Shown piece after piece: positions 2,317-17,657 of a stretch of 35,599 nt of DNA. The position numbers and the translations under genes were made by a program. Position 1 is the stretch's first letter, and each line of letters starts with the position of its first letter. Under the pieces are notes generated by a model. The model made no database searches, was not told the DNA's origin, and saw only the letters and a program-made list of their open reading frames with translations. This stretch comes from Phyllobacterium phragmitis (GTDB lineage Bacteria; Pseudomonadota; Alphaproteobacteria; Rhizobiales; Rhizobiaceae). The stretch spans positions 1-35,599 of the forward strand of contig NZ_PVBR01000032.1 in NCBI RefSeq assembly GCF_002980495.1, in the 5' to 3' direction.

Positions 2317-2333
2317 CTTAAGCCAGCCTTAAG
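2317..2333. promoter_or_regulatory. PmrA-box-like operator, site 1 (CTTAAG-N5-CTTAAG)
   Basis: CTTAAG at 2317-2322 and 2328-2333, spaced by CCAGC. On the minus strand the 17-mer is identical to site 6 before the response regulator. The site lies in the divergent gap: 59 bases before the DsbA-like ATG at 2393 and 123 bases before the kinase ATG at 2193. It could control both. The layout matches the published PmrA/BasR box, two YTTAAK half-sites one helical turn apart. Binding itself is inferred. Confidence 0.85.
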
Positions 2334-2392
2334 GTCCGCCGCGTGGAACGCGCCCTGCCAGTACCTGCCTAGATAGCAGAAGGAGTAAGCGA

Positions 2393-3031
2393 ATGCCTAC
2401 ATGCACACGCCGCAGCGCAATCTTCACATTTGGCGGAGCCGTCTTGAGCCTGCCGTTTCTGGGTCAGATTGCAATCGGCCAGGAGATTGAAGTCACGAAG
2501 GAGATGATCCTGAACGATCCGGAAGCCCCGGTCGGCGGGAATCCCAACGGCGACGTCACGATTGTAAATTTCACGGATTATAATTGCCCCTACTGCAAGA
2601 AAGTCGCTCCGATCCTTGCCCGCGTGATCAAAGAGGACGGCAAGATCCGGCAGGTCTATAAGGACTGGCCGGTGATACGCCCCACCTCGATCGAGGGCGC
2701 ACAGCTTGCAATCGCCGCAAAATATCAGGGCAAGTACGAGGTCGCGCACGATGCTTTGATGAAGATACCTGGAAGCGGCATAAGCAAGGAGCAGATGCGC
2801 GCAGCACTGCAAGCCGCCGGTATCGACATGAAACGGCTCGACCGCGATATGGCCGCACATCGCGGAGATATCTTTGCACTGATCAAACGCAATATGGCGC
2901 AAGGCGACGCCCTCGGCCTGACCGGTACGCCGAGCTTCCTCATCGGCCCCTTCCGAGCCTCCACGCTCGACTATCAGGGTTTCAAGCAGGTGATTGCCGA
3001 CGCACGCAAGGCGCAAGCGGAATCACGCTGA
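2393..3031 (+). CDS. Periplasmic DsbA-family thiol oxidoreductase (CPYC)
   Basis: 212-residue secreted thioredoxin-fold protein. A signal peptide (about 1-29, basic start TCTRRS, then a hydrophobic run) is followed by the redox motif CPYC at 65-68. The cis-proline loop TGTPSF is near residue 178. This is the BdbD/DsbA 'thioredoxin_4' type that moves disulfides onto or between periplasmic proteins. The start is ATG 2393 with AGGAG seven bases upstream. It is transcribed alone, 59 bases after operator site 1, and faces the L,D-transpeptidase gene convergently. With DsbD and the TlpA fusion nearby it resembles the ScsC-ScsB-ScsD (suppressor of copper sensitivity) set. A DsbD nearby suggests it may be kept reduced as an isomerase or reductase rather than act as an oxidase. 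Its role here is inferred. Confidence 0.88.
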   Translation: MPTCTRRSAIFTFGGAVLSLPFLGQIAIGQEIEVTKEMILNDPEAPVGGNPNGDVTIVNFTDYNCPYCKKVAPILARVIKEDGKIRQVYKDWPVIRPTSIEGAQLAIAAKYQGKYEVAHDALMKIPGSGISKEQMRAALQAAGIDMKRLDRDMAAHRGDIFALIKRNMAQGDALGLTGTPSFLIGPFRASTLDYQGFKQVIADARKAQAESR

Positions 3032-3101
3032 GGTCCAGGAAGGCGGCTCGTTTTGACCGACGTATAAGGGGCTTTAGCCTGACGTGGTCGAATCTGTTTC
3101 T

Positions 3102-3809
3102 TCAATGGACGACGATACGAGCGCCGGGCTTGACCCGCTCATACAGGTCGATGATGTCCTGATTTAAAAGGCGGATGCAGCCGGCGGATACGGCTTTTCC
3201 GATTGATGACGGATCGTTTGTGCCGTGCACGCGGTAATAGGTGTCTATGCCATCCTTGTGCATGTAAAGGGCGCGGGGGCCCATCGGATTGTGTGGCCCG
3301 CCATCAACACCATCCTTATTGGGCGCATACTGCGCTGGATTGCGCGCTATCATGCTGGGGGTGGGGATCCATCGAGGCCATTCAGCTTTCCTCGCGATGA
3401 CGGCCTCCCCTCCATCGAAGGCGCGAGCAATCGGCCCGACGCCAACAGCGTAACGAATAGCCTTGCCCTCTGGAAGCACAAAATAGAGATACCGTGCCTT
3501 CTGGTCGACAATGATCGTTCCAGGTGGCTCCGCCGTCCGGTAGTCGACAATTTGGCGCACATGCTTCGGATTCAACTTGGAGGTATCGACTGCAGCAATC
3601 GGGAAGTTGTTGTCCGACATGGCGCGATACATCTGGGATGGCGGCTCATCGACCGGCTTGAACGCCAAAGGAGACTGATCGCGACGGATGATCGGCGAAG
3701 CCACCAGCGGGGTCGGCTTGCTACTGGTCTGCACGGTCGAACATGACGACAGAACAACGGCCGAGAGGAACGTAAGCGATACGCTCCGCGATAAATTCAA
3801 AAATGGCAC
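3102..3809 (-). CDS. L,D-transpeptidase (YkuD) lipoprotein, copy 1
   Basis: About 235 residues. A short signal peptide ends in the lipobox LSSC (Cys23 from the chosen start). A proline-rich linker follows, then a YkuD catalytic domain with the signature HGTNDPSSIGKAVSAGCIRL, which carries the catalytic His and Cys. Such enzymes make 3-3 peptidoglycan cross-links or attach proteins to the wall. The open frame could start at TTG 3842. I prefer GTG 3809 because GGGGG lies five bases upstream and it leaves 51 bases to operator site 2, like the other sites. GTG 3815 is a third choice. It is transcribed alone, and its paralogue at 16768 shares the same operator type. Confidence 0.87.
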   Translation of the reverse strand: MPFLNLSRSVSLTFLSAVVLSSCSTVQTSSKPTPLVASPIIRRDQSPLAFKPVDEPPSQMYRAMSDNNFPIAAVDTSKLNPKHVRQIVDYRTAEPPGTIIVDQKARYLYFVLPEGKAIRYAVGVGPIARAFDGGEAVIARKAEWPRWIPTPSMIARNPAQYAPNKDGVDGGPHNPMGPRALYMHKDGIDTYYRVHGTNDPSSIGKAVSAGCIRLLNQDIIDLYERVKPGARIVVH

Positions 3810-3860
3810 TTTCACCCCCAAGTTGGTCAGCGATACTGACAACCCGGTTCGAACCTGATT

Positions 3861-3877
3861 CTTAAGCCTGCCTTAAG
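3861..3877. promoter_or_regulatory. PmrA-box-like operator, site 2
   Basis: CTTAAG at 3861-3866 and 3872-3877 around CCTGC, upstream of the first L,D-transpeptidase. The site is 51 bases from the preferred GTG start and only 18 bases from the longest possible start, which argues against the latter. The rest of 3878-4048, downstream of the TlpA fusion, shows no gene I can support. Confidence 0.83.
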
Positions 3878-4048
3878 GCGCGCCGTTTCTGCTTGGGAAT
3901 GCGCCACCATACGACATTATCCATGACGATGCCTTCAGCTCAGTTCGTCCTGGCATCGCCTCTCAACAGGATGGCGTTGTTCGTGGCGGCCAATCAAAAG
4001 TGCACACCGGCAATCAGACACGTGCAGACAATCCGGCTTGGGCTTGCT

Positions 4049-4849
4049 TCAGTCGAGGGCTTCGATCCCGGCGACAAGTGCCTCCCTCGAAATCTCTCCC
4101 ATGTGCATTGACCGCAATGTGCCATCGCTTCCGATAAAAAGTGTTGCCGGCAAGCCTGGTGACGCATAATGCCGCCCAAACCTTCCAAGGGAATCGAGAA
4201 CTACATGATCGAGCTCGAGCCGCTCGGTTGCAAGATATCGATTGATGACGTTTCGCCCTTCCCCCTGGTTGACGAAGATGAAGACGGCATCATTGTTGTT
4301 CACCGCGACATCCGCCATTATTGGCATTTCCCTGCGGCACGGTGGGCACCAGGTGGCCCAAAGATTGATAACTGCCGGCCGGCCTTCAAGGTTCGCTGGT
4401 CGGAACGGCTCACCCGTTAACATGACATAGTTGCCATCAACTGGCAGAGGGGGTGGCGGCACTCCTGCGGTTAGCTGGATGACCAGAACGGCCACGAAAG
4501 CCGCGACGGCGCTCGGCAGCGTAGTCCAAGGTATGAGACGCAGATGATGCCGGAAATGCAGACATGTATAGATGAACGCTAAGGCAATGCCGGCTTCGAT
4601 CCGGAAGCCCCCCTGCCAAATTGCCAAAACGCGCCACGGCTCGTGCAGAAAGGTCACGGCATGTTCGAGAACATGACCCAAGCGTGCGCCAACGACAAAC
4701 GTAATCGTGCCCCACCAAGCCCATGAGGCAAAGCGCGGGTCTACCTTTCGTGACAGCACCTCATTCAACAAAAGGAAGGCGCCGATCGCCAGAATGGCGG
4801 CAAATCGATCCGGCGCGAAAACGAAAGGCCCGATTATGACGGTGTTCAT
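4049..4849 (-). CDS. Lgt-like membrane domain fused to TlpA/DsbE thioredoxin
   Basis: 266 residues in two parts. Residues about 1-128 hold several membrane segments with an Lgt-like stretch: GARLGHV, then about 20 residues later LAIWQGGFRIEAG. Residues about 130-266 form a TlpA/ResA-type periplasmic thioredoxin with ATWCPPC (Cys168, Cys171) and the cis-proline loop GLPATLF. Real Lgt enzymes have a catalytic His in the FHGG position after IWxGG. Here that place is Glu85, and the domain is less than half of Lgt length. The membrane part is therefore probably an anchor or electron/thiol conduit, not a diacylglyceryl transferase. The gene starts one base after the dsbD stop, so it is in the same operon and likely receives electrons from DsbD. 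Confidence 0.82.
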   Translation of the reverse strand: MNTVIIGPFVFAPDRFAAILAIGAFLLLNEVLSRKVDPRFASWAWWGTITFVVGARLGHVLEHAVTFLHEPWRVLAIWQGGFRIEAGIALAFIYTCLHFRHHLRLIPWTTLPSAVAAFVAVLVIQLTAGVPPPPLPVDGNYVMLTGEPFRPANLEGRPAVINLWATWCPPCRREMPIMADVAVNNNDAVFIFVNQGEGRNVINRYLATERLELDHVVLDSLGRFGRHYASPGLPATLFIGSDGTLRSMHMGEISREALVAGIEALD

Positions 4850-4850
4850 C

Positions 4851-6665
4851 TCAGCCCCCTGCCCGTGCGATCGACGCTTGCAGCGTCTGTATCGTCATAT
4901 CGCCGACAAGACGTGTACCGCTGGGCTCCGTCCCTTTGGCGTCAAAAAAGATCATCGTCGGCGGACCGATGACGGCTAGGTCCCGCATCAGCCGCTGATT
5001 GGCGTCATCCAGCGTGGTGAGATCGACCTTCACACGCTGGAAGCCGCCCAGTCCTGCCTCGATTTCAGGAGCCGAAAGCACATCGCGATCGATTGTCCTG
5101 CAGGTGACACACCAGTCGGCGGTGAAATAGACGAGCGTGGGACGGCCATTGGCCATGGCAAGCTGCTCTTCAAGGTTTGCCGCCGATCTCGCTTCCGTAA
5201 AAGTGAAGGCCGCCGTGGCTTGCCGTTCCACGCCACCGCTGCCGAAGTGGGCAAGCGGGCGCAGCGGGTCGGTGCCTCCCGATGCAGCGCCGACGGCGAG
5301 GATCACGCCACCAAGCATGAGCGCCATCCCACCGGCCTTCCGAAAGCGAGAGGCCGCCGATGCATCTTCCGCCAGCCGATCGACGGCTCCGAGAAATACC
5401 GCAACAACGATGAACAGGACCGCCCAGAGGGCAACGGTAAGCTGCGGCGGCACGATCCGTGACGCCATCCAGATGGCCGCGCCGAGGAAGACGAACCCGA
5501 AAACATGCTTGACCTGCACCATCCACGCCCCGCCACGCGGCAGGGCGCGGCTTCCCAGCGAACCGAATGCGATGAGCGGAATTCCTTGTCCCAGCCCAAG
5601 CGCAAAGAGCGCCGAGGCACCCAGATAAACATCTCCGGTTTGGGCAATGTAGAGCAAGGCGGCGGCGAGTGGCGCGGTAACGCATGGCCCCACGATCAGC
5701 GCCGAGACGAAACCCATCCCGGCCACGCCCGCCACCGATCCGCGGCTGCCTGCCTGTACGCCGGCCATGCGGTTGACCCAGCCGGAAGGCAATTGCAGTT
5801 CGAACAGGCCGAACATGGAGGCGGCCAGCACGACGAAGAGAACGGCGACCGCGCCGACGGCATAGGGCGACTGCAGCACCATCTGAAGGTTCTGCCCCGA
5901 CCACGCGGCAACAACGCCCAGCATTCCGAACGCCAGCGCCATAGCCAGCACATAGGCTGATGAAAGCACAAACCCCCGCCGCGGCGTCAGTGCTTCGCCT
6001 TGGCGGGCCAGCGTCGCGCTCAGGATCGGGTACATCGGCAAGACGCACGGCGTGAAGGCGAGCAGCAACCCGAAAACGAGGAAGCTCGCAATGACCCAGA
6101 GCGCCCCGCCACTCGCCAGCAGCGAACCGACCATTCCGCCGCCGCGCGAGTCATCGGCGAGTTGAAAGCCATTGCCCTCCATCTCGCTTGCCGATTTTTC
6201 CTGCGGTGCGACAGGCCCGAAGCCGACCACTGGATCAGAAACCTGCAAGGTTTCCGTGTTGAGAGTCCGCGTGAGCGGCGGGTAGCAGATCGAGTCCTTC
6301 TTGCATCCCTGATAGGTGATCGCAACCTGCTCTGGCGCCCCTGCTTCGAGCCGCGCCATGGCCTGTAAATAGTAGACCTCCGATGGTCCGAAGTTTGAGT
6401 CGTTGGACTCGACCACCCCTGGCTCCGTTTGCAGGGGGAGTCTCTGACCGGTGCCGGCGTCCCGCGCCTGAATATGATCACGGTAGAGGTAATATCCTTC
6501 CGCGATCACCCAGTGCAGCACGATCTCCTCGCCCTGCCCGCGCTCGACAGAAAAACGGAAAGCGTCTTCAGCTTTCAGGATGTCCGCCGGTTGAGCGGAA
6601 GCAGCTATGGGCAATATAATGAAAAGCAGGCTCGCCAGGAGCCGGAAGACTTTGATAAGAGACAT
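4851..6665 (-). CDS. dsbD: Thiol:disulfide interchange protein DsbD
   Basis: 604 residues, normal length for full DsbD. A signal peptide (cut after about Ala24) precedes a periplasmic alpha domain with the redox pair Cys121/Cys127, spaced as in the E. coli protein. An eight-helix core follows with the conserved TPCVLPM and GPCVTAPL cysteine motifs. A C-terminal thioredoxin-like gamma domain carries ADWCVTC (Cys519/Cys522). It carries electrons from cytoplasmic thioredoxin across the inner membrane to periplasmic thiol proteins. Here the likely clients are the TlpA fusion just downstream and the DsbA-like protein at 2393. The leader is unusually long: operator site 3 lies 157 bases upstream, with a small cysteine-containing ORF between. 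Confidence 0.93.
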   Translation of the reverse strand: MSLIKVFRLLASLLFIILPIAASAQPADILKAEDAFRFSVERGQGEEIVLHWVIAEGYYLYRDHIQARDAGTGQRLPLQTEPGVVESNDSNFGPSEVYYLQAMARLEAGAPEQVAITYQGCKKDSICYPPLTRTLNTETLQVSDPVVGFGPVAPQEKSASEMEGNGFQLADDSRGGGMVGSLLASGGALWVIASFLVFGLLLAFTPCVLPMYPILSATLARQGEALTPRRGFVLSSAYVLAMALAFGMLGVVAAWSGQNLQMVLQSPYAVGAVAVLFVVLAASMFGLFELQLPSGWVNRMAGVQAGSRGSVAGVAGMGFVSALIVGPCVTAPLAAALLYIAQTGDVYLGASALFALGLGQGIPLIAFGSLGSRALPRGGAWMVQVKHVFGFVFLGAAIWMASRIVPPQLTVALWAVLFIVVAVFLGAVDRLAEDASAASRFRKAGGMALMLGGVILAVGAASGGTDPLRPLAHFGSGGVERQATAAFTFTEARSAANLEEQLAMANGRPTLVYFTADWCVTCRTIDRDVLSAPEIEAGLGGFQRVKVDLTTLDDANQRLMRDLAVIGPPTMIFFDAKGTEPSGTRLVGDMTIQTLQASIARAGG

Positions 6666-6680
6666 GAACTCGCTCGAATG

Positions 6681-6822: not shown

Positions 6823-6839
6823 CTTAAGGCAGACTTAAG
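6823..6839. promoter_or_regulatory. PmrA-box-like operator, site 3
   Basis: CTTAAG at 6823-6828 and 6834-6839 around GCAGA. It lies upstream of the leader ORF, dsbD and the TlpA fusion on the minus strand. The remaining gap to the copper-pump stop (6840-7024) holds no gene I can support. Confidence 0.83.
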
Positions 6840-7024: not shown

Positions 7025-9112
7025 TTAGGGACGACTGCCGGCAAGCCGCAGACTGTTTAGCGATACCGACACAGAACTTGCCAGCATCGCGCAAGCCGCC
7101 ATTACTGGCGAAAGAACTCCTGTCACCGCAAATGGTATTGCGATCGCATTGTAGACCAGCGCAAAACTGACATTCTGCGTGCCGATAGCCACCGTTCGAC
7201 GGGCAAGCGCGATTGCTGCTATAATCTGCTCGACACCACCTTGGACGATGGCAACGTCTGCCGTTTCGGCAGCAGCACTATGAGCACCGGCAACTGAAAT
7301 GCCGCAATCCGCAGCGGCGAGTGCCGGCGCGTCATTGATGCCATCACCGATGAACATCACCGGCCGTTCGGAACGGGTTATCAGCTCCGCTTTCTCCCCT
7401 GGGGTGCAACCATAATGAATTCGGCTTGCCGCCAGGCAGAGTTGCCTACCCAGCGCTAGCGCTGGGCCTTTGCTGTCGCCCGTTGCAATGAATACCGAAA
7501 CGCCATCACGCTCGAGCGTTGCCAGCACTTCGGCCGATTTATCCTTCGGCCGGTCGGCGAGATCGAGCGTTCCGATAAGAACACCGTCGCGCTCTACGAC
7601 CAATCGCGTCTTACCTGCATCCGAGGCGCTACCCATCACGGTTGTGACCCGCCCCATCGCGTCATAAGTCCGCGCACCGCGGGCGAGTCGCGTCCCTCCG
7701 GCTCCCTGCTCCGAGCCATGCCGCCGCACGATTGCCTTGGCCAGCGGGTGAAGAATACCGGTTTCGGCCGCCGCTGCCATTGCTATCACCTCGGCCTCGT
7801 TCCAGCCCGGCTCGGGCGTCACACTCGTGACCGTTGGCACGCCTTCGGTCAAGGTGCCTGTCTTGTCAAATATTGCGGTGCGCACGCGCGACAGCATTTC
7901 AAAGGCTGCGGGTTCACGGATACGGATGCCTTGCATCGCTGCCAAACCGGCCGCGCGTGCTTGCGCCAAGGGACCGGCGATAGAAAGAGCGCATGGGCAT
8001 GCCCCGGCAAGCACAGCGAGCCCACGCAAAAGAGCATCCGGCCATGGAACACTCAAGAGCGGTTGCGAAACCGAGGTCACCAATGCAAGAGCCGGTATGG
8101 CCCAGGCGAGAAAACCGGCGACGTGGTCGGCTTTTGACGTGATGGTGCCGCGACGGGCGATCTCCAACGCGATGACGCCTCCCATACGATCAATGTCGCG
8201 ATCGCCGTATAGGCGATCGACCGTGACGACCAGCCGCCGCTCCAAATTAATCGTCCCGGCCTCGACCCGCACGCCGGTCGACACCCGTACCGGTGTGGAT
8301 TCGCCAGTAAGGGCCGAACGATCAATCGTGCTTGTGCCACTCGCAACAATGCCGTCCATACCGACGGGCGCGCCGGCATCGACAACAATGAGATCGCCAG
8401 GCATGATTTGCGAAAGCTCCCTCTCGCCGGTCGTTTCTCCCGCGAGAACTATGGCTGTATCGGGCGATGTTCGCTGAAGTGCAGTCAAGGTGTCGATGGC
8501 GTTCCGACGAATGGTAATGTCCAACAGCCGCCCAACGAGACGGAGCGTGACGAGCATGGTAGCGGTGTCGAAATAAACATCCGCCGTGCCGTTAATGAGC
8601 GTAGCCGCCGATGCGGCGAGAGCGCCGAAGGTGCCCATCGTGACGAGAAGGTCCATGCCGGGCGCACCTAGGCGAAGGGATTGGGAGGCCATCCAAAAGA
8701 TGCCTCGCCCTGCCCACAGCACCGGCAATGCGAGGATACCGGCCGCGCAAGCGATCCACCATGCAGTCGTCACGTCCAGCACCGAGACGTAGAGCACGAT
8801 CGACAGAGCCATCGACCACATCCCCGCCATCACAGCGATGGCAAGCCGTAACGAAAGACGCCGTAGGTCGCGTCCAAGGAAAACGGAGAGTTCTTCCGGG
8901 CGATGCCGATCGATGAGGCGATAGCCCGCCTTGGCCACCGCACTGCCAAGCGCGGCCGTGGATAGTTGCTTCTCGTCCCATTCCACCAGCGCCGATGCCG
9001 TGAGATGGTGCACGCCAACCGAGCGCACCCCGGGCAGCCGGCTCAGATACCGCTCCAGCCCTCGCGCGCAACCGCCGCAGGCTAGCCCATCGATTGCGAA
9101 GAGTCGGCGCAT
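7025..9112 (-). CDS. ccoI: Cu(I)-exporting P1B-type ATPase, CcoI/FixI type
   Basis: 695 residues. A single N-terminal heavy-metal domain with CGGC (Cys12/Cys15) is followed by membrane segments. The remaining motifs are in P-type ATPase order: the actuator loop with TGES, the metal-site motif ACPCALS, phosphorylation DKTGT, the nucleotide-domain HP (GILHPLAK) and the hinge GDGINDAP. The last helices carry the YN and MxxSS features of Cu(I) pumps. CcoI delivers copper for the CuB site of cbb3 oxidases. It is the last gene of the oxidase operon, seven bases after the TsdA-like stop, which supports that role over copper detoxification. No ccoG or ccoH is present here. Confidence 0.9.
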   Translation of the reverse strand: MRRLFAIDGLACGGCARGLERYLSRLPGVRSVGVHHLTASALVEWDEKQLSTAALGSAVAKAGYRLIDRHRPEELSVFLGRDLRRLSLRLAIAVMAGMWSMALSIVLYVSVLDVTTAWWIACAAGILALPVLWAGRGIFWMASQSLRLGAPGMDLLVTMGTFGALAASAATLINGTADVYFDTATMLVTLRLVGRLLDITIRRNAIDTLTALQRTSPDTAIVLAGETTGERELSQIMPGDLIVVDAGAPVGMDGIVASGTSTIDRSALTGESTPVRVSTGVRVEAGTINLERRLVVTVDRLYGDRDIDRMGGVIALEIARRGTITSKADHVAGFLAWAIPALALVTSVSQPLLSVPWPDALLRGLAVLAGACPCALSIAGPLAQARAAGLAAMQGIRIREPAAFEMLSRVRTAIFDKTGTLTEGVPTVTSVTPEPGWNEAEVIAMAAAAETGILHPLAKAIVRRHGSEQGAGGTRLARGARTYDAMGRVTTVMGSASDAGKTRLVVERDGVLIGTLDLADRPKDKSAEVLATLERDGVSVFIATGDSKGPALALGRQLCLAASRIHYGCTPGEKAELITRSERPVMFIGDGINDAPALAAADCGISVAGAHSAAAETADVAIVQGGVEQIIAAIALARRTVAIGTQNVSFALVYNAIAIPFAVTGVLSPVMAACAMLASSVSVSLNSLRLAGSRP

Positions 9113-9119
9113 ATCCGCG

Positions 9120-10151
9120 TTATTCCGGAGCGCCGACCGGCCTGTCAGGATCAGGGGTGCCTACGCCCAATAATGCACCGTTTAGGGTCTTCCCATAGTA
9201 GATCTCATCGCCATCATGGAAGAGTTGTCGTGTCTCCTCTATGGACTTATTGCCCTGACGGGGTTCCTTCGGGCGCTCGAAACTGTCAATATATGCCGCC
9301 ACGTCCCAAGCCTCCTGATCGGTGAGCCAGCCGGGCTGGGATAGAGGCATGTTATTTTTGATGAAGGCGGCAGCTGTATCGATGCGCGCCATGCCGGCAC
9401 CCCAATTGTAGGAATTCGGGCCCCATAATGGCGGGAAGACATAACGCCCGTTCATGTCCTTTTGGCCTTGCCCGTCTTTTCCATGGCAGACGGCGCAATT
9501 TGCAGCGAAAACTTGTGCTCCGCGTTCCGGCGTGTAGCCAAGTTCGGTCTTGGCGACCTTACCGAAACCAGCGCCTTTTACTTGTTCGTTCGTTGGGGTG
9601 CCGGTGGCAAGCCAGAAGAAATAGCTTTGCAGATCGCGGTAAATGTCGTCTCCCGCAGGCGGCGGCCCGCCCTTCGCAGAATGCTGGGCGTTCATTGAGT
9701 AGGTGAAGCAGCCCTTCACCCGATCTTCCATTGTGTTGATCTGTTTGTTTTTCGAACGGTACTTTGGATATTGTACCCAAGCCGCCCACATCGGAGCCGA
9801 CAGGGGTTGCCGTCCTGCTCCCAGGTGACAGTTCGAGCAGGACAGACCATTCCCGACATATTGCGACGCATTGGTGGACGTATTCATGAAAATTGCCTGT
9901 CCGCGACGAACGGCTGCGCCGAATTGATCGTTCGGAATCTCGTCATCGCCCGGAGGCTGGAAAATTCCGTCAGTCGCTTGTCCCTCAACAACCTTCTGAG
10001 CCGCCTGGTCGATGAAGCCGCTTTCATACGCGAGTGCCGCAATGGCGATGACGACGAGAACTCCGCCCGCAGTGTGAATCCACCATCGCGCAAGGCCACC
10101 CTTCCGGGCGTTGGCTGGTTGATCTTCTGGGATTTCGGCGTGTTCCGTCAT
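9120..10151 (-). CDS. TsdA-like membrane-anchored dihaem cytochrome c, copy 1
   Basis: 343 residues. A cytoplasmic tail and one membrane anchor (about 22-42) precede two c-haem domains, CSNCH (105-109) and CAVCH (219-223). Cys148 sits 39 residues after the first haem His in the motif GCFTYSMN. This matches the unusual axial Cys ligand of thiosulfate dehydrogenase TsdA. FPPLWGPNSYNWGAGMAR and the AAAFIKNNMP stretch also match TsdA. TsdA oxidises thiosulfate to tetrathionate or runs in reverse. The anchor would keep it next to the oxidase. The frame is open to 10433, but ATG 10151 overlaps the upstream stop as ATGA, as elsewhere in this operon. The actual substrate is not proven. Confidence 0.8.
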   Translation of the reverse strand: MTEHAEIPEDQPANARKGGLARWWIHTAGGVLVVIAIAALAYESGFIDQAAQKVVEGQATDGIFQPPGDDEIPNDQFGAAVRRGQAIFMNTSTNASQYVGNGLSCSNCHLGAGRQPLSAPMWAAWVQYPKYRSKNKQINTMEDRVKGCFTYSMNAQHSAKGGPPPAGDDIYRDLQSYFFWLATGTPTNEQVKGAGFGKVAKTELGYTPERGAQVFAANCAVCHGKDGQGQKDMNGRYVFPPLWGPNSYNWGAGMARIDTAAAFIKNNMPLSQPGWLTDQEAWDVAAYIDSFERPKEPRQGNKSIEETRQLFHDGDEIYYGKTLNGALLGVGTPDPDRPVGAPE

Positions 10152-11395
10152 GGCCGGTCTCCAATTTTGGCAATTTGTTCGGCTTCCCCCGCCGGAACCG
10201 GCGGAAGCGAGGCGAGATAGTCTGCGACCGCACGGCGATCGGCATCGCTGAGTTGGCGCGAGATCCGTCCCATCAAATCGAGGGACGAGTTGTTGCGATG
10301 GCCTCCGGTCCAGGCTGCGAGTTGGTTGGCGGTGTATGCCGCCTGCTGGGCAGCTAGCGGCGGAAACTCCGGCGCAACGCCAAATCCCGACGGGCCATGA
10401 CATGAGAAGCAGGCCGGAACATTGCGGCTCCAATCGCCATGAAGGGCAAGCTCCTCGCCCCGAGCCAAGTTTCCGCCGAGTTCAGGCTTCGCGTTCGATG
10501 GCACGCGAAGCCTGGCATAATACTCGGCAACCTCGCGTTTTTCGGCATTGGAGAGCGTAGAGACGACGATGCGCATGGATTCATTGACACGACGGCCTTC
10601 GATGAAATCGTCAAACTGCTTGACGATGTAGTCGGCGGGCAGACCGGCGAGACGAGGGGTATTTTCCTTGCCTTGCCCAAGATCACCATGACAGCTCGCG
10701 CATGCCCACTGCTCGCCGCGGCCCGTGAAAATCAAGGAAGAGGCTTCAGGCGTCAGGGAAGCTGCAATTGCGGAAACGAAAGGAGGCTGCGCCCCGACCG
10801 CAGCGCCGGTCGAGGCAGCAATCTCTGCCCCGCCCTTAAAGCCGCCGCTATGGGCAACGCGCTCGCGCAGCGCCGCTACGCTCAAAGGATCGAGGGTATC
10901 GGAGGCGCCCCCAAATCGATGAGAAACATATGTTGCAAGTTCGCCGATTTCACCGTCCGTCAGCACGCTCGCAAAGCTCGGCATGTGACCGTTGAAGATA
11001 TGATCGCCCACGCGGATCGGTCCGTCGATGCCGCGCAGCAGGATCGTCGCGATCAGTTCCGGCCCTTGGGCTACAAAGGTGGATCCGGCGAGAGGCGGGA
11101 TCGCACCGCGCACACCCAAACCGTCCGCCTGATGGCAGGTCGCGCAGCGAGCGGCGAATAGCGTGGAGCCCGGCTCGCTGGACTCGTCCTTTTCCATGCG
11201 GCTCGCAACCGTCCTTTCAACCTCGGCGAGCGCGATATCGTGGCGCGTGTCGATGAGAGTGGCGGCTCCCCAAATTCCCAGGCCAACGGCAAAGGCGATC
11301 AGTGGCCATGGCATCTTGCCATGCTGTTCGTAGGGCTCGAAATTTTCATCCGGCCGACTTGGATCGACAGTTTCTAGGTTGTTCTCTGGAGTCAA
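10148..11395 (-). CDS. Membrane-anchored trihaem cytochrome c with c4-like pair (CcoP-position)
   Basis: 415 residues. One membrane helix (about 29-48) is followed by three c-haem domains: CATCH (84-88), CASCH (232-236) and CFSCH (329-333). The last two, each with an LSxA/D...YYA or YLASL-type end and an RLAG/PLAA loop, resemble the two halves of cytochrome c4, a known donor to cbb3 oxidases. It occupies the place of CcoP in the operon and probably passes electrons to CcoO/CcoN. The start is TTG 11395, overlapping the ccoO stop by TTGA, with GGAGG seven bases upstream. The later ATG would cut into the membrane helix. The three-haem form is uncommon for CcoP but known in some species. Confidence 0.82.
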   Translation of the reverse strand: MTPENNLETVDPSRPDENFEPYEQHGKMPWPLIAFAVGLGIWGAATLIDTRHDIALAEVERTVASRMEKDESSEPGSTLFAARCATCHQADGLGVRGAIPPLAGSTFVAQGPELIATILLRGIDGPIRVGDHIFNGHMPSFASVLTDGEIGELATYVSHRFGGASDTLDPLSVAALRERVAHSGGFKGGAEIAASTGAAVGAQPPFVSAIAASLTPEASSLIFTGRGEQWACASCHGDLGQGKENTPRLAGLPADYIVKQFDDFIEGRRVNESMRIVVSTLSNAEKREVAEYYARLRVPSNAKPELGGNLARGEELALHGDWSRNVPACFSCHGPSGFGVAPEFPPLAAQQAAYTANQLAAWTGGHRNNSSLDLMGRISRQLSDADRRAVADYLASLPPVPAGEAEQIAKIGDRP

Positions 11396-12012
11396 TTTGT
11401 GCCCTCCGGTCGAGCGTAACCATCGTCCCGAAGTGCTCCCGCAGGCGCCGGATAGGTGCGGTCGAGCGAAAGCAGGTAGGCAACGAGATCAAGCGCTACT
11501 TGCCTGGCGACGACAACACCGGCGTCGGGGGCGAATGACGAGGGAAGCGAGACGACAACATCTCCTGGTGCAGCCGCGCTCTTTTCCTCGAAGAGGAAAG
11601 GATAGGCGGGCATGATACTCCACTCGAAGATGGCGCGTGGCTGATAGAGATGAGTCAAATGCCAGTCGCGGGATGGCAGACGCGCCCCGACATTCAGAAG
11701 ATCTGGCCCGGTGCGCATCGTGCCGAGTTGATGGGGCGCATCGTAGACATAGTCTGCCGCGATTGCAGGGCGGCCCCAGCCACGCACGCTGTCAGGAGCC
11801 TGATCGGGTGATCGCGGTTGCTGGCTGTGACAATAGACACAGCCTAGAGAAACGTAGACTTCACGCCCCCGAAGTTCCCGCTCGGTGTAGGGCTTCAAAC
11901 CCGGAGGAGCATCATGGCGGCTGATCTGAATCCCCGGCGCGATCACCAGCAGAAGCGTTGCGAAAGCGAGAATTGCCAGCGCCAAGATGGAGAGAGGAAG
12001 ATACCGGTTCAT
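11392..12012 (-). CDS. ccoO: cbb3-type oxidase subunit II, CcoO-like
   Basis: 206 residues. An N-terminal membrane helix (about 6-27) precedes one c-haem motif, CVYCHSQ (58-62). The CcoO pattern follows: GWGRPAIAADYVYDAPHQLG, then RTGPDL, DWHLTHLYQPR and SIMPAYPFL. The last motif supplies the Met ligand region. CcoO receives electrons from the other cytochromes and passes them to subunit I. The frame is open to 12288, but ATG 12012 overlaps the ccoN stop as ATGA and begins the signal anchor. It is the second gene of the oxidase operon. Confidence 0.92.
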   Translation of the reverse strand: MNRYLPLSILALAILAFATLLLVIAPGIQISRHDAPPGLKPYTERELRGREVYVSLGCVYCHSQQPRSPDQAPDSVRGWGRPAIAADYVYDAPHQLGTMRTGPDLLNVGARLPSRDWHLTHLYQPRAIFEWSIMPAYPFLFEEKSAAAPGDVVVSLPSSFAPDAGVVVARQVALDLVAYLLSLDRTYPAPAGALRDDGYARPEGTN

Positions 12013-13583
12013 TCTGCAGGCACCGTCTGGACAGTCGCCGATGTCCGGCGAGGAAGGAGAATAGCCGCCACATTGAAAGCGAAGAGGAGGTGCCCGATCG
12101 TCATCAAGCTGCCGCCTACGCTCCGCGCCTCGAGATAGGGGATGGTGACAAGCACACTGTCGGAGAATGGTCGCGTTGCATCGAGCATCGCGAGGCCCTG
12201 CAGAACGCCGCCGATCGAAAGACCAAAGAAATAGATTGCGAACCCAATGACGATGAACCAGAAATGCGCGTTGATGAGCGCAGGCCACGGGAAAGCCCGT
12301 CCGGTCATACGCGGCAGCATGTGGTAGGCGGCGCCGAACATGATAATCGTGACGAAGGCATAGGCGCCGAGATGTGCGTGTCCGACCGTGTAGTGCGTGA
12401 AATGCGTGACCGTATTGACCGAACGGAGCGCCTCGATCGAGCCCTGGAACGACGCCAGCGTGTACATGACCGCGCCGAAGGAAATGAAGCGCAACGGCAG
12501 TGATTCCCTCAGTGCCCAGAGATTGCGGGCGACGGTGATGTGCTGGTTGATGGCCACGGCGATAACCGGAATGAACATCATCACCGAATGGACGACGGAA
12601 AGGGTCACAACCCAGGTGGGCACCGGCCCTCCGATCAGATGATGGATACCCACCTGGCTATAGAAGAGCGCTAGGCCCCAGAATCCGAGCAGTGACACGG
12701 AATAGGAATAGATCGGTTTTCCGATGATCTTCGGGATGAAATAGTAAGCCGTCCCAACGCCTATCGGCGTCAGCCAGAGCCCCAGAACATTATGCGCGAA
12801 CCACCAGTTGACGGTGGCTTCCTCGACGCCGGAATGGATGAAGGGGATGTTGGCAATGACGAAAAGGCAGGGAAACCACAGAATGCCAGCCAGGAAGTAC
12901 CAGCCCGAGACATAGATGTGGCGAACTTCCCGGGCTCGCGTCGTCTTGATGAGCGGGATCACGAAGAACATGCCGGCCAGCGCCAGAAGCATGTCTAACT
13001 GCCAGGGGATTTCGAGCCATTCTTCGCCATCCGTCCATCCATTGGCGATGGCGAGCGCGCCAAGCGCAACAGCAATGTTCCAGAGAACCGCGCCGAAGAT
13101 CGGCAGTCGCGGGGCACGCAACGGCGTATGGAAAATGCGCGGCAGGATCCAAAACATTGAAGCAATGCCGACCTGCGACAGCCAGCCATAGATGACGAGA
13201 TTGAGATGAAGGGTGCGGACGCGCCCGAAGGTAAGCGGCGCGGAAGCGGAAAGCCAATCCGGCCAGTGCAACTTTAGGGAGGCGATGAGCCCAAAGACGG
13301 AACCGATTAAGAGCCAGACGGTGGCAGCGACAAGCAGCACCTTCACAGGCGTGGCGGAGATACGATCGATACCAGTGTTGGCTGTGTCGAACGAGTGCCG
13401 CTTCGCAAAAGAGCGTCCTGCATCGGGGCTATCGAGATGACCCTCCTCGCCAGGGGCGAAAATGACCTTAGCGTCTTGCTGGTCGAGTTTGATCTGGTGG
13501 TTGCTGATCGCCCAGATGAGAAAGCCGAGTGCAAGCAATGAGACTAAGAAGCTCAACGCTAATAATAGCCCCGCCGTCATCAT
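12009..13583 (-). CDS. ccoN: cbb3-type oxidase subunit I with CcoS-like N-terminal extension
   Basis: 524 residues. Catalytic residues match CcoN: low-spin haem His126 (LHLNL), CuB ligands His264 (WWFAHN) and His314/His315 (GIHHL). The crosslinking Tyr308 lies 44 residues after His264, and haem ligands His402 and His404 lie in VGHAHLG. The Tyr argues for an oxygen reductase and against a nitric oxide reductase. Residues about 1-50 are an added membrane helix followed by WAISNHQIKLDQQDAKVIF. This resembles CcoS, the small cbb3 assembly protein usually encoded apart. The start is ATG 13583 with GGGAGGGA upstream. It is the first gene of the operon ccoN-ccoO-trihaem-tsdA-ccoI, 68 bases from operator site 4. 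No ccoQ was seen. Confidence 0.92.
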   Translation of the reverse strand: MMTAGLLLALSFLVSLLALGFLIWAISNHQIKLDQQDAKVIFAPGEEGHLDSPDAGRSFAKRHSFDTANTGIDRISATPVKVLLVAATVWLLIGSVFGLIASLKLHWPDWLSASAPLTFGRVRTLHLNLVIYGWLSQVGIASMFWILPRIFHTPLRAPRLPIFGAVLWNIAVALGALAIANGWTDGEEWLEIPWQLDMLLALAGMFFVIPLIKTTRAREVRHIYVSGWYFLAGILWFPCLFVIANIPFIHSGVEEATVNWWFAHNVLGLWLTPIGVGTAYYFIPKIIGKPIYSYSVSLLGFWGLALFYSQVGIHHLIGGPVPTWVVTLSVVHSVMMFIPVIAVAINQHITVARNLWALRESLPLRFISFGAVMYTLASFQGSIEALRSVNTVTHFTHYTVGHAHLGAYAFVTIIMFGAAYHMLPRMTGRAFPWPALINAHFWFIVIGFAIYFFGLSIGGVLQGLAMLDATRPFSDSVLVTIPYLEARSVGGSLMTIGHLLFAFNVAAILLPRRTSATVQTVPAE

Positions 13584-13651
13584 GCGCAGTCCCTCCCTTG
13601 CCCGGCCTGCTCTTGCGGCAGGCGCACAGGATCGTGCGCTGGAAGGCCAAA

Positions 13652-13668
13652 CTTAAGGCAACCTTAAG
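13652..13668. promoter_or_regulatory. PmrA-box-like operator, site 4
   Basis: CTTAAG at 13652-13657 and 13663-13668 around GCAAC, 68 bases before the ccoN start on the minus strand. This is the only operator for the five-gene oxidase operon, so the oxidase, cytochromes and copper pump would rise and fall together. Confidence 0.84.
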
Positions 13669-13765
13669 AAGCTAGTTCTGCTGTGAAAAAGGCTTAGAGC
13701 TGATCACAAAAGCTCAACAAGAACTTGAGGTGGGATGCATGATTCCATCTGATTTGCATCCTATC

Positions 13766-14677
13766 CTAGTATCGTGCATCCTTCGGTTTTTTGACGTTCG
13801 GCCAGTCATTCACTTTTCCTTCAAAATTGGGGCGTGGCATATGGGTGAAATATTTCGCTACGTCGACGGCGTCCTGATCGGAGAGAACCCCGCCTGCCCC
13901 GAGCGGCGGCGTAAGATTCATCGCTGGCGGCATGGCGTATTTGATGAACTGCGCCGCCTTGTAGGTTCTGGCCATGCCAGCGCCGATGTTGAATGATTCG
14001 TCGCCCCAGAGCGGCGGGAAGATATAGTCGCCCGACTGGTCCTTCATACCTTGACCATCGGCGCCATGGCAGAACGCACACTGAGCTGCGTAGATTGCCT
14101 TTCCCCGCTCGGGATCGGGAATCAAGCTTTCGTCGATCGACCGGACGTTGCGGATCGCCACTTTGGTACCTTTCGCCACGCCCTGTCTCAGCCAATCCAT
14201 ATAGGCAACCATCGCCTGCATTTCGGCGCTTTCTCTTGCCAGAGGCTTGCCGTTCATCGAGCGCTGAAAGCAGCCATTGATCCGCATAACGAGATCGACC
14301 TCCCGCCCAGCGCGGGGCATCACCGCAGGATAGAAGTTGCTGGTGTTGATGTACGGATTTGCGTCAGGGAGTTTACCCTGGGCCATATGGCAAGAGTTGC
14401 AATTAAGGCCGTTGCCAACATTGGCGGCCAGCAGGCGCGCGGTCTCATTGAGGAGACGCTTGCCCTGGAGGATCGACTGAGCGTTTTCCTCCTGCAGGAT
14501 TTCGGCATCTGCGGGAATGCGATAGGTGCCGACTTGCTCTTTGTCTTTGCCAAGCACTGCGAACCTATCCTGTGCGGATGCGTCGAGTGTCGGTTCTGCC
14601 ATGAGGACATATATACCCGTCGCTCCCATGAGCGCCAGAACAGCAACGATGGCGAGAAGAAACTTACTCTTTGTCAT
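13766..14677 (-). CDS. TsdA-like dihaem cytochrome c, copy 2
   Basis: 303 residues. An N-terminal signal or anchor helix (about 6-27) precedes CNSCH (93-97) and CAFCH (200-204). Cys136, in GCFQRSMNG, again lies 39 residues after the first haem His, as in copy 1 and TsdA. IFPPLWGDESFNIGAGMAR is shared with copy 1. Sequence outside the motifs has diverged clearly, so this is an old paralogue, not a recent duplicate. The start is ATG 14677 with GGAG seven bases upstream, overlapping the end of the trihaem gene by 14 bases. Likely role: periplasmic sulfur-compound or thiol oxidation feeding cytochrome c. The substrate is inferred only from the family. Confidence 0.8.
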   Translation of the reverse strand: MTKSKFLLAIVAVLALMGATGIYVLMAEPTLDASAQDRFAVLGKDKEQVGTYRIPADAEILQEENAQSILQGKRLLNETARLLAANVGNGLNCNSCHMAQGKLPDANPYINTSNFYPAVMPRAGREVDLVMRINGCFQRSMNGKPLARESAEMQAMVAYMDWLRQGVAKGTKVAIRNVRSIDESLIPDPERGKAIYAAQCAFCHGADGQGMKDQSGDYIFPPLWGDESFNIGAGMARTYKAAQFIKYAMPPAMNLTPPLGAGGVLSDQDAVDVAKYFTHMPRPNFEGKVNDWPNVKKPKDARY

Positions 14678-16013
14678 GCTGATCTCCCGGCACGTAATGC
14701 TTGGGTTTACGCGCGATCTCGTGACGCATCCGCGAGATATCTTTGTCGGTGATCTTGCTGCCGTGATTTCCCCAGCCATTGCGGATGAAGTTGAGGATGT
14801 CAGCAATCTCGCGGTTTGTCAGATGAGCAAACCCGGGCATTGTGAAAGCCATGGCATCATGCGGCGTTTTCGGCATGCGTCCCCCTGCGAGCGTGACCTG
14901 GATGAGGGAACTCGGATCGTCGGAGAAGACCATCGAGTTGCCCGCAAGTGCCGGATAAATCCGCAGCGCCCCTTTACCGTCCATCCGATGACAGATTGCG
15001 CAGTGCTCGACATAGGATGCTGCGCCCGGGGCCTCGAAATTTCCGGTTTTTAGCGCCACGGTCGTAACATCCTGCTTCGGCTTCCAATTCGGCTTGCGGT
15101 CGTCGCGAGGAGTGAGGGATTTCAGATAGACGGCGATCGCTGTCAGGTCCTTCACTGAGAGATGCTGTGTCGAGTGCTCGATGACATCAGACATCGAGCC
15201 GAAGGCCGCCGTCTTGTCATTACGCCCAGTACGCAGGAACTCGATGATCTCGTTGGTTGTCCATGTAGACAAGCCGGTGTCTTCATTGCGTAGATTCTTG
15301 GCGTACCACCCCTCCAATACGGACCCGGAAAGAAAATAGCTGTTCGGGCCGTCAACCAACGCAGTTTCCTCGAAAGCGAGACCGCGCGGCGTGTGGCAAG
15401 CACCGCAGTGAGCAAGGCCTTCGACGAGATAGGCACCATGCAGGATCTGCGGGTCGGCACTGTCGTTTGCAAACTGCCGGGGCTGCGCGAACAGAAGCTG
15501 CCACCAGGCAATCGGCCAACGCATGCTGAGGGGCCACGGCATAGTGGTCGGCTGGTTGTCTTGTTGAACGGCGTCTACACCCGACATGAAATAGGCGTAT
15601 AGCCCCTTCATATCGTCGTCGGTGATAATTGCATAGGATACGTAGGGCATCGCCGGATAGAGGTGAGTGCCATCGCGTCTTATGCCCTTCCGCACAGCCC
15701 GTTCGAAATCGCCGTAGCTATAAGCACCGATTCCCGTCGAGCGATCAGGCGTGATGTTCGTGGAATAGATGGTGCCCATTGGCGTCTGCATGCCGAGGCC
15801 GCCAGCGAAAGGCTTACCACCGGGTGCCGTATGACAGGCAATACAATCCCCTGCCCGCGCTAGATACTCACCTTGACGGATGAGATTGGGATCACTGACA
15901 TCGACCTGCGTCTCTGATTTCGGCTTGAACCAATAAGGCGTAGACATCGCAATCGCGTAAGAAGATCCCAGTCCGCAGATCGCGAGCAATGCAAGCTTAC
16001 TTAATGGTCGCAT
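14664..16013 (-). CDS. Trihaem cytochrome c, AdhB/gluconate-dehydrogenase subunit type
   Basis: 449 residues. A signal peptide (about 1-22) is followed by three haem motifs: CIACH (57-61), CGACH near 207 and CAICH near 346. The spacing and the motifs STNITPD, YPAMPY, MPGFAHLT match the cytochrome subunit of membrane alcohol, gluconate or sorbitol dehydrogenases. No flavin or PQQ dehydrogenase subunit lies in the window, so this one is orphaned. It is co-transcribed with TsdA copy 2 and could pass its electrons onward. The ribosome site before ATG 16013 is weak. The upstream gap (16014-16125) has no operator, so expression may come from site 5 through the thioredoxin gene. Confidence 0.87.
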   Translation of the reverse strand: MRPLSKLALLAICGLGSSYAIAMSTPYWFKPKSETQVDVSDPNLIRQGEYLARAGDCIACHTAPGGKPFAGGLGMQTPMGTIYSTNITPDRSTGIGAYSYGDFERAVRKGIRRDGTHLYPAMPYVSYAIITDDDMKGLYAYFMSGVDAVQQDNQPTTMPWPLSMRWPIAWWQLLFAQPRQFANDSADPQILHGAYLVEGLAHCGACHTPRGLAFEETALVDGPNSYFLSGSVLEGWYAKNLRNEDTGLSTWTTNEIIEFLRTGRNDKTAAFGSMSDVIEHSTQHLSVKDLTAIAVYLKSLTPRDDRKPNWKPKQDVTTVALKTGNFEAPGAASYVEHCAICHRMDGKGALRIYPALAGNSMVFSDDPSSLIQVTLAGGRMPKTPHDAMAFTMPGFAHLTNREIADILNFIRNGWGNHGSKITDKDISRMRHEIARKPKHYVPGDQHDKE

Positions 16014-16125
16014 GGCATAACCAATTTGTTTCGATAATTATCCTAGTATCTCGAATCCCTCCCTATCACTTTGATTTCAATCAACATCGCCGGCCCATGT
16101 TCTTTCGATATGGCTTGCGGTGCAG

Positions 16126-16650
16126 TTATCGGAAGGGGCGCAGACGCCGAATAAGATCGCTCGCACGAAACGCCCTCACGGAGCGTGTATCCCGATACTC
16201 GCGGCCGCTGGCCAAATGAACCACAAAAAGAGTCGGTGGCCCGTCGGCATGCAAATATCGGAGAAGTTCGTGGCTGTATTGATCCATCCGGGTCACGTCG
16301 ACTTTGATCAGCGGGATCCGCTCCATAGCGCGCCGCACGCCAGGATCCGGCAGGATTTCATTATCGATCGTCTCACAGAAGGCGCACCATTCCGCCCCGA
16401 TGTCGACGAGTGCAGCTTCGTAATGTGGTGAAAGCCTCGTCAGGGCGCTTTGGTAATCGGCTAGCGTCATCGCAGTTAACGTCACAGCATCGGCTCTTAC
16501 AGATACGCACGTAGCGGCTGCAGTCGTCAGTCCCGCGATCAGGAACTGGCGCCTCGTCACGGAAATCGCTCTGTGGCGGCGAGGTTCAGCGGTCCCAGCC
16601 TGCTCTGAGCAGGAAACAATCGCGGTCATCATCGATATAGGAAATTGCAT
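16126..16650 (-). CDS. Exported thioredoxin-fold protein with Tat-like signal (WCAFC)
   Basis: 174 residues. A long n-region and a twin-arginine motif TRRQFLIAG (Arg33/Arg34) precede a hydrophobic run, suggesting Tat export. A thioredoxin fold follows with EWCAFC (Cys89/Cys92) and a GPPTLFVV cis-proline loop, closest to the DsbD gamma domain and single-domain relatives. The start ATG 16650 has GGGGAG six bases upstream. The longer frame to 16677 lacks this. It is divergent from the second L,D-transpeptidase across operator site 5 and lies upstream of the cytochrome pair. It probably reduces or oxidises a periplasmic partner such as an apocytochrome. The partner is unknown. Confidence 0.75.
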   Translation of the reverse strand: MQFPISMMTAIVSCSEQAGTAEPRRHRAISVTRRQFLIAGLTTAAATCVSVRADAVTLTAMTLADYQSALTRLSPHYEAALVDIGAEWCAFCETIDNEILPDPGVRRAMERIPLIKVDVTRMDQYSHELLRYLHADGPPTLFVVHLASGREYRDTRSVRAFRASDLIRRLRPFR

Positions 16651-16691
16651 GCTTGGCTCCCCTTTGCTGCATCGCATCGGCGCGAGCTAGC

Positions 16692-16708
16692 CTTAAGGCT
16701 GACTTAAG
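16692..16708. promoter_or_regulatory. PmrA-box-like operator, site 5
   Basis: CTTAAG at 16692-16697 and 16703-16708 around GCTGA, in the divergent gap. It is 59 bases before the L,D-transpeptidase TTG at 16768 and 41 bases before the thioredoxin ATG at 16650. It could serve both, as site 1 does. Confidence 0.85.
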
Positions 16709-16767
16709 GTGCCAATGGCATTTCGGCCTTCTGAACCCGGAACCCTGTAAGAGGGCTGAGAGGAAAA

Positions 16768-17487
16768 TTGAGTACCAAGGTCATTTCGAAGCCAATTGCC
16801 CGGCGCGCGTTTATCGTCGGGGCGAGCGCCCTGACCCTGTGTGGCTGTGTTTCGGCGCGCGAGCCGATCGGTAGGGTGACACCTGTAGCTGAGGTCAAAC
16901 CGAAACCGGTGGTTCCGCTGATGTATGCAGCTCTACCAAACGAGCAATTCCCCATCCCGGCGGTGGATATTTCGCAGGTCGATGAGAAATGGTGGCGGAC
17001 AGAGGTGGATTACCCGACCGATGAAAAAGCTGGTACGGTGATCGTCGACACCCCAAACCGCTATCTCTATCACATCCAGTCGGGCGGAAGGGCTGTGCGC
17101 TACGGCGTTGGCGTGGGGCGCGACGGCTTTTCATGGGCTGGCCGGGGGCATATCGCCTACAAGCGGAAATGGCCACGCTGGAATCCTCCCGACGAGATGG
17201 TTGCTCGTCAGCCTGAGCTCGAGCCCTACAGCATCGCCAATGGCGGAATGCCTCCGGGGCTCAACAACCCACTCGGGTCCCATGCATTGTATATTCACCA
17301 AGGGAATCGAGACACGATCTACCGTATTCATGGCTCGCCTGAATTCCGGACCATTGGGAAGGCCGTTTCCTCGGGGTGCATTCGCATGCTCAACCAGGAC
17401 GTCATTCATCTCGCCGACAATGTCCAGGACGGCAGCACGATCGTCGTTATCCCCGATCCGGCGATGCAACATCTCATGGTGGGATGA
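16768..17487 (+). CDS. L,D-transpeptidase (YkuD) lipoprotein, copy 2
   Basis: 239 residues. A signal with ARRAFIVGA (possible Tat motif) ends near CGC, suggesting a lipoprotein. A YkuD domain follows with HGSPEFRTIGKAVSSGCIRM, holding the catalytic His and Cys. The start is TTG 16768 with GAGAGG four bases upstream. No ATG or GTG fits the signal. It is a paralogue of the gene at 3102: both share the region VDISQ/VDTSK, then a short gap, then AGTVIVD or GTIIVD. The two differ enough to be old duplicates. Likely role is wall cross-linking under the stress sensed by the kinase. Confidence 0.87.
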   Translation: MSTKVISKPIARRAFIVGASALTLCGCVSAREPIGRVTPVAEVKPKPVVPLMYAALPNEQFPIPAVDISQVDEKWWRTEVDYPTDEKAGTVIVDTPNRYLYHIQSGGRAVRYGVGVGRDGFSWAGRGHIAYKRKWPRWNPPDEMVARQPELEPYSIANGGMPPGLNNPLGSHALYIHQGNRDTIYRIHGSPEFRTIGKAVSSGCIRMLNQDVIHLADNVQDGSTIVVIPDPAMQHLMVG

Positions 17488-17640
17488 GTCAGTTTGCCGC
17501 ATCCAATGTATGAACGGATGCACTGGGTTTCCGCTCAACCCTGATAGTTGCTATGCCCAGTGCCGCGCCTTTCTCAGAAGCGTATGAACTGGCCTGCAGG
17601 TAAAGCCCGTTGAGATTGGGGCGCAACACACATCTGTCGG

Positions 17641-17657
17641 CTTAAGGCTGGCTTAAG
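17641..17657. promoter_or_regulatory. PmrA-box-like operator, site 6 (autoregulation)
   Basis: CTTAAG at 17641-17646 and 17652-17657 around GCTGG, 47 bases before the response regulator ATG. The 17-mer equals site 1 read on the minus strand. The layout implies that the regulator controls its own gene. The rest of 17488-17704 shows no gene. Confidence 0.86.

Follow-up and report, generated by a model that had tools for sequence, protein, structure and literature searches.

The described operator closest to the element analyzed here is that of the PmrA (BasR) response regulator, for which an excerpt of PMC10729948 quotes the consensus YTTAAK-N5-YTTAAK; the Klebsiella pbgP box takes the form CTTAAT-N5-CCTAAG and is read head-to-tail (excerpt of PMC3973317), and N188, N196, and R210 are given as the residues by which PmrA contacts DNA bases (excerpt of PMC4660055). 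In a 35,599-nucleotide stretch of the Phyllobacterium phragmitis genome (contig NZ_PVBR01000032.1, hereafter the window), six exact copies of CTTAAG-N5-CTTAAG begin at positions 2317, 3861, 6823, 13652, 16692, and 17641, in a redox island that also encodes a response regulator (RR, from 17705) and a sensor histidine kinase. All six satisfy the quoted PmrA consensus, with a spacing equal to that of the Klebsiella pbgP box, and their original description as pairs of TTAA-type half-sites spaced as in the PmrA/BasR box agrees with the consensus as it appears in that excerpt. In our judgment it is very probable that these boxes are the operators of the RR, acting through the kinase, regulon, sign, and input steps proposed below, and comparative genomics shows a link between box and RR at the level of sequence.

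An exact search and a count of the half-site agree that the window holds these six boxes and no others, as had been claimed by eye: CTTAAG occurs 12 times in its 35.6 kb, and all 12 occurrences are box halves. Oriented alike, the six boxes fit CTTAAGGCWRVCTTAAG, also as predicted. Allowing up to three mismatches adds six window matches, every one with three mismatches and one of them overlapping the box at 16692. A genome-wide search with the 17-mer, proposed alongside the original prediction as a check, revealed that the motif is not common: across 5.63 Mb in 139 contigs, the only exact copies are the six of the island, and the two single-mismatch copies found elsewhere have no island homologue within the surrounding 3 kb. 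At up to two mismatches there is no genome-wide enrichment (40 places vs. 227 for the reversed control), indicating that the signal resides in the exact copies. The palindromic nature of CTTAAG and the presence of recombinase genes to the right of the island could suggest that the boxes play no regulatory part and reflect chance, the end of a mobile element, or an effect of restriction sites. We regard the probability of this as negligible. No exact box was obtained in 100 dinucleotide-preserving shuffles of the window, and in 27 named RR loci (defined by 59–84% identity to the RR and by membership in its tree clade) CTTAAG pairs, tested at spacings of 0–40, are separated by N5 in 39 cases and by N15 and N17 in one case each, whereas other palindromic hexamers form at most two N5-spaced pairs each. 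Across genomes, moreover, the boxes have differing flanks and an upstream placement. Chance, a restriction site, and a mobile-element end were hence rejected, being contradicted by the shuffles, the N5 spacing, and the census described below.

The boxes, all exact matches, precede eight predicted starts at distances of 14–157 bases. Box 1 (2317..2333) lies between the kinase gene (minus strand) and a gene for a DsbA-like protein (plus strand), 59 bases before the latter and approximately 120–123 before the former. Box 2 (3861..3877) precedes the gene for L,D-transpeptidase 1 (Ldt1, minus strand), at 18 bases from the start of the longest open reading frame (ORF) and approximately 42 or more from internal starts; box 3 (6823..6839) precedes the DsbD-TlpA genes (minus strand), 157 bases before DsbD; and box 4 (13652..13668) precedes a CcoN-CcoO-CcoP-cytochrome-P1B ATPase operon (minus strand), 68 bases before CcoN. 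Box 5 (16692..16708) is located between the genes for a thioredoxin-like protein (Trx, minus strand), at 14 bases from its longest start or 41 from an ATG at 16650, and for L,D-transpeptidase 2 (Ldt2, plus strand), at 59 bases, and box 6 (17641..17657) lies 47 bases before the RR gene (plus strand). The placement of every box upstream of a transcription unit is thus borne out, and the spacing of 41–68 bases originally given for most starts holds if internal starts are taken for Ldt1 and Trx, but not for DsbD or the kinase. The units implied by the boxes total 15 genes, matching the earlier estimate, provided that two cytochrome genes belong to the Trx operon, as they probably do; the gap between Trx and the following cytochrome gene is 112 bases.

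A census covered 297 genomes of the host's family, of which 74 have one or more exact boxes and 53 have the RR, orthologues being recognized at a cut of at least 59% identity that was set after seeing a gap between 59 and 53% in the data. The box is present in all 53 RR-positive genomes (52/52 without the window's own) vs. 21 of 244 RR-negative genomes (Fisher p = 8e-42, a statistic that ignores shared ancestry), with totals of 119 and 29 boxes, respectively, and 0–3 per genome for the reversed control. Two congeners of the host (G001 and G004) carry two and one exact boxes, respectively, and no RR above the cut was found in them. The boxes of the 21 RR-negative genomes, together with the LysR regulator gene that adjoins the island at 18531 and with a box found before a LysR-like gene in two Paracoccus plasmids, would be compatible with the main user of the box being another protein, such as this LysR regulator or a paralogous response regulator. 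Such an alternative is nevertheless very unlikely, since box presence follows the RR clade, the box precedes the RR gene itself, a LysR-like match was obtained in only a few of the scanned RR loci, and tandem half-sites of this kind are, in the excerpts of the PmrA literature cited above, those of PmrA.

The promoters of RR genes carry the box in a consistent position. An exact box lies within 110 bp of the RR gene in 24 of the 27 named loci and within 160 bp upstream in 59 of 69 distinct upstream regions of RRs with at least 58% identity; in 56 of these 59, the end of the box lies 33–61 bases from the RR start. Methylorubrum extorquens AM1, with an RR match of 63% identity, has an exact box 39 bases ahead of that match. 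When the 59 promoters are oriented toward the RR, an A is conserved 12 bases past the box (0.78) and a T 12 bases before it (0.64); the two sit symmetrically about the box center. Both signs of regulation can be weighed against this arrangement. Under a mainly repressing mode, the same RR would use the same boxes to block RNA polymerase until relieved by the signal. Promoter elements could indeed be masked by boxes at 33–61 bases, no complete −10 hexamer was seen past the box in the 59 promoters, and PmrA has been suggested to repress the arn promoter (excerpt of PMC10729948). We consider this mode unlikely. Half-site 1 coincides with the −35 element in the PmrA-pbgP complex, and PmrA activates there (excerpt of PMC4660055); the conserved A would take the second position of a −10 element if the box replaces the −35 element. 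The likelier sign for the RR would be activation with positive autoregulation, the box lying in the −35 region.

The box precedes a recurrent set of gene families in other genomes. An island homologue lies downstream of 106 of the 133 distinct exact boxes in the compared loci, a set biased by the many loci that were chosen through their RR. Among 30 loci selected on the motif only, one per genome, an island homologue adjoins the box in 23 of 23 RR-positive cases vs. 2 of 7 RR-negative ones, a count in which L172 (box 1326) was scored positive and L151 is positive via a kinase homologue in one scan and negative in another; random positions in 23 RR-clade loci adjoin an island homologue in 630 of 4000 trials. 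The families found behind boxes elsewhere include the RR, DsbD, L,D-transpeptidases, DsbA, the kinase, thioredoxin, TlpA, and CcoN, as well as DsbG (271.9 bits, cut-off 124) and a SoxB-like gene of the 5′-nucleotidase family (L220:8561-10036; 318.7 bits, below the cut-off of 550). Similar SoxB-like genes are seen by eye near boxes L217:14937 and L045:13473. A link between the box and copper-binding peptides comes from Bradyrhizobium elkanii, where an HvfX-family gene lies behind boxes (L049:13213-13776 and L219; 80.3 bits, cut-off 80); this genome contains 13 exact boxes, several of them with another spacer. The core of the system, composed of the RR-kinase pair, DsbD, DsbA, and L,D-transpeptidase, is widespread in the Alphaproteobacteria, and the oxidase module is an optional extra. 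The association of the motif with the regulator, which a motif common across the host genome without such a link would have undermined, is therefore sustained: the box tracks the RR in 297 genomes, and it precedes the RR gene in most relatives and the same target families elsewhere.

The identity of the regulator requires a more guarded description. The RR falls below the NCBIfam cut-offs for both PmrA/BasR (NF007928, 233.9 bits vs. 330) and QseB (NF007663, 225.6 bits vs. 345), and in a tree whose deeper branches are weak, and in which the E. coli PmrA is a long branch, it is placed within a 28-row alphaproteobacterial clade (95/89) separate from E. coli PmrA and QseB. The designation PmrA-type box is hence preferable to PmrA box. 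The original assignment of a PmrA/QseB-type regulator and kinase stands as a family likeness, and stops short of either named family. As judged from sequence, the system is PmrA-type by its anatomy and is filed neither as PmrA nor as QseB. The recognition helix of PmrA is nearly identical to that of the RR, in which the PmrA contacts N188 and R210, but not N196, are kept (residues from the excerpt of PMC4660055), and in E. coli K-12 a single-mismatch box lies before eptA-basRS, inside an inverted repeat. On the other hand, the helix pattern of the RR, SN(T/A)(I/V)EVH(I/V)HxLRxK, is common to E. coli QseB, the best NCBIfam match of the island kinase is QseC (NF007664, 241.2 bits, below the cut-off of 475), and the E. 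coli ygiW-qseB intergenic region also contains a single-mismatch box. A published Aggregatibacter QseB site reportedly contains CTTAA repeats. Three distant alphaproteobacterial QseB-like loci carry a box before a BOF/YgiW gene, whereas no BOF gene is seen beside the island RR, and the QseB consensus quoted in the excerpt of PMC10729948 is a different sequence from the island box. No paper on this alphaproteobacterial two-component system was found in the open-access literature, a weak sign of absence given that subscription journals were largely uncovered.

Several observations weigh against the assignment of the boxes to this RR. The census takes no account of shared ancestry and its identity cut is post hoc, and 29 boxes occur in the 21 RR-negative genomes, the two congeners of the host included. 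Three of the named RR loci, all from sphingomonads (L056, L057, and L084), have no exact box before the RR, seven further RR upstream regions have none within 160 bp, and no island homologue was found behind 27 of the 133 distinct boxes. Furthermore, the PmrA contact N196 (residue from the excerpt of PMC4660055) is a His in the RR. In these loci, exact boxes are found further out, in L216 with an L,D-transpeptidase gene in between. Upstream of the sphingomonad RRs, one CTTAAG appears intact by eye and the second half-site degenerate, which may represent operator drift.

The island also departs from its relatives in the arrangement of the regulatory pair. The kinase match lies 2–75 bases behind the RR match in the 27 named loci, and in the island the kinase is encoded at the opposite end from the RR, behind its own box. 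Homology to locus L036, from an uncultured Rhizobium, breaks between the RR (to 18359) and the kinase (from 2194); the RR promoter of L036 is matched best by box 1 and its flanking bases (28 bp at 96%). The RR hence seems to have once stood between box 1 and the kinase and to have moved to the far end of the island, where it now lies behind another box. In the relative L214, the kinase (6158-7477) and the RR (10317-10964) are likewise apart, with exact boxes at 6073 and 11007. That both separated halves keep a box would fit selection for autoregulation.

The regulatory genes themselves encode a QseC-like kinase (823..2193, minus strand; ORF open to 2316) with Pfam matches to HATPase_c, HisKA, and the 2CSK_N sensor domain, and a PmrA/QseB-like RR of the OmpR/PhoB family (17705..18400, plus strand) that exceeds the cut-offs for Response_reg (91.1 bits) and Trans_reg_C (88.7 bits). 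The thiol-redox component comprises a DsbA-like periplasmic protein of thioredoxin fold with a CPYC motif (2393..3031, plus strand; Pfam Thioredoxin_4 and DSBA), an Lgt-like membrane part fused to a TlpA/ResA-like thioredoxin domain (4049..4849, minus strand; Pfam LGT, Redoxin, and AhpC-TSA), the protein-disulfide reductase DsbD (4851..6665, minus strand; NCBIfam NF001419, 501.9 bits, cut-off of 330 met), and the signal-anchored Trx (16126..16677, minus strand), which resembles the C-terminal part of DsbD (9e-15 with the DsbD model) and scores slightly below the cut-off for Thioredoxin_7 (26.7 vs. 27). Ldt1 (3102..3842, minus strand) and Ldt2 (16768..17487, plus strand) both match Pfam YkuD with a score of 73.2. 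The scsBCD set consists of DsbD, DsbA-like, and TlpA-like proteins. The island contains all three kinds and differs from DsbD/Scs-type systems in tying them to L,D-transpeptidases and to a two-component system. It differs likewise from PmrA/BasR in its targets, which are thiol-redox, cell-wall, and respiratory, with no lipopolysaccharide (LPS)-modifying gene detected when the 16 genes at 823-19649 were scanned in Pfam. The thiol-redox and respiratory theme initially proposed in place of LPS modification is upheld in both respects, but it overlooked the cell wall: with two L,D-transpeptidases as core members, the theme is one of envelope thiols and cell wall, besides respiration.

The respiratory component is encoded on the minus strand. 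The operon behind box 4 begins with a CcoN-like catalytic subunit of a haem-copper oxidase (12009..13583; Pfam COX1, 273.4), which is below the cut-off for the NCBIfam ccoN model (TIGR00780, 282.8 vs. 583.15) and hence appears to belong to a divergent haem-copper oxidase. It continues with a CcoO-like monohaem subunit (11392..12048, with a start probably near 12012; Pfam FixO, 115, on an ORF to 12288), a CcoP-like multi-domain cytochrome c (10148..11395; Pfam Cytochrom_C in two stretches, ccoP model 59.9, below the cut-off of 179.95), a cytochrome c with a SoxA/TsdA-type domain (9120..10157, with an inferred start; Pfam match on a longer ORF to 10433, SoxA model 49.4, below the cut-off of 110), and a P1B heavy-metal ATPase with an HMA domain (7025..9112; TIGR01525, 395.8, cut-off of 346.25 met) that remains below the cut-off of the copper model (TIGR01511, 373 vs. 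397). The two cytochrome genes next to Trx encode a multihaem cytochrome c (14664..16013; Pfam Cytochrom_C, three CxxCH by eye) and a second cytochrome c with a SoxA/TsdA-type domain (13766..14677; Pfam match on a longer ORF to 14806, ATG at 14677). As in cbb3-type (C-type) oxidase operons, CcoN-, CcoO-, and CcoP-like proteins are encoded in one operon with a P1B ATPase, but the island subunits lie well below the curated cut-offs, are accompanied by extra SoxA/TsdA-like cytochromes, and are box-controlled by placement.

Paracoccus indicus (L045) and plasmids of Paracoccus aminovorans, Paracoccus versutus, and Indioceanicola profundi (L225-L227) carry close copies of the CcoN-CcoO-CcoP-cytochrome-P1B operon, with CcoN identities of 66–76% and an RR of 66–67% identity in all four; in each of these alphaproteobacterial records an exact box lies within approximately 170 bp of CcoN. 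The P. aminovorans and P. versutus plasmids contain nearly the whole island and five exact boxes each, of which one precedes the multihaem cytochrome and another the LysR-like gene. In contrast, none of four betaproteobacterial records (CcoN, 51–53%) has an exact or single-mismatch box in the 29.5 kb examined or an RR of at least 59% identity, and one stretch has a response regulator at 37%; two records (H6 and H9) from second strains of the sampled species were left out of this comparison. The Cupriavidus metallidurans megaplasmid encodes a 53% RR relative, below the cut and 1.6 Mb from the oxidase, in a search where the other three betaproteobacterial records were not among the 60 matches listed. 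As a marker of the island, CcoN yielded only paralogues of at most 36% identity in 60 relatives and no match at E ≤ 1e-110 in 384 other genomes of the class, the close copies coming from plasmid records; a search of plasmids for near matches to 16 kb of the island was negative. The betaproteobacterial relatives L229 and L231, which have no box, carry a molybdopterin-dependent oxidoreductase gene and a TDT transporter near the oxidase, suggesting sulfite chemistry.

To the right of the island, three adjacent and overlapping tyrosine-recombinase genes (20742-23286; Pfam Phage_integrase each) form an arrangement that we take to be that known as recombinases in trio, and a similar run of three is found near the oxidase cluster of L229. 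An IS200-like transposase (20321-20746; Pfam Y1_Tnp) and, by eye only, an IS66-type transposase (33617-35371) are also present. Genes at 23851-33290 resemble, by eye, Trb-type conjugation genes, and the island may hence lie in or beside an integrative conjugative element.

In the proposed mechanism, the QseC-like membrane kinase would sense an envelope signal and phosphorylate the RR, a dimer of which would bind the two CTTAAG half-sites, 11 bp apart, in the head-to-tail manner of PmrA. The RR would thereby control the eight starts and their approximately 15 genes: its own gene and the kinase, DsbA, DsbD-TlpA, and Trx for periplasmic thiol reduction, the two L,D-transpeptidases, and the oxidase, cytochromes c, and P1B ATPase. 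The nature of these targets hints that the input could be periplasmic thiol damage from agents such as copper, oxidants, or sulfur compounds. Since the operator is nearly palindromic, one head-to-tail dimer may drive divergent promoters either way; the spacer and flank columns of the boxes hardly vary, so that a covariation comparison of dyad and direct repeat is uninformative and the palindrome idea is a suggestion only.

On this evidence, the predicted regulon is read as one of thiol redox and cell wall, extended here to a haem-copper oxidase. A broader reading, which we find as easy to doubt as to accept, is that of an undescribed two-component envelope stress response spanning the Alphaproteobacteria, in which thiol reduction (DsbD, DsbA/DsbG, TlpA, and Trx) would be joined to L,D-cross-linking of peptidoglycan and further modules would be recruited via the 17-bp operator: here the haem-copper oxidase and the SoxA/TsdA-like cytochromes, elsewhere SoxB-like genes and HvfX-family genes of copper-peptide maturation. 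Because the operator is short and has almost no chance background, most of the regulon's target list should be readable from the genome. The box would mark the regulon of an uncharacterized two-component system in rhizobia, Paracoccus, Methylobacterium, and their relatives. It would represent a PmrA/QseB-type operator that has been kept across proteobacterial classes while its target genes differ, being directed here to periplasmic redox and the cell wall and not to LPS modification, and it opens to test how envelope thiol repair, peptidoglycan cross-linking, and copper enzymes are coordinated.

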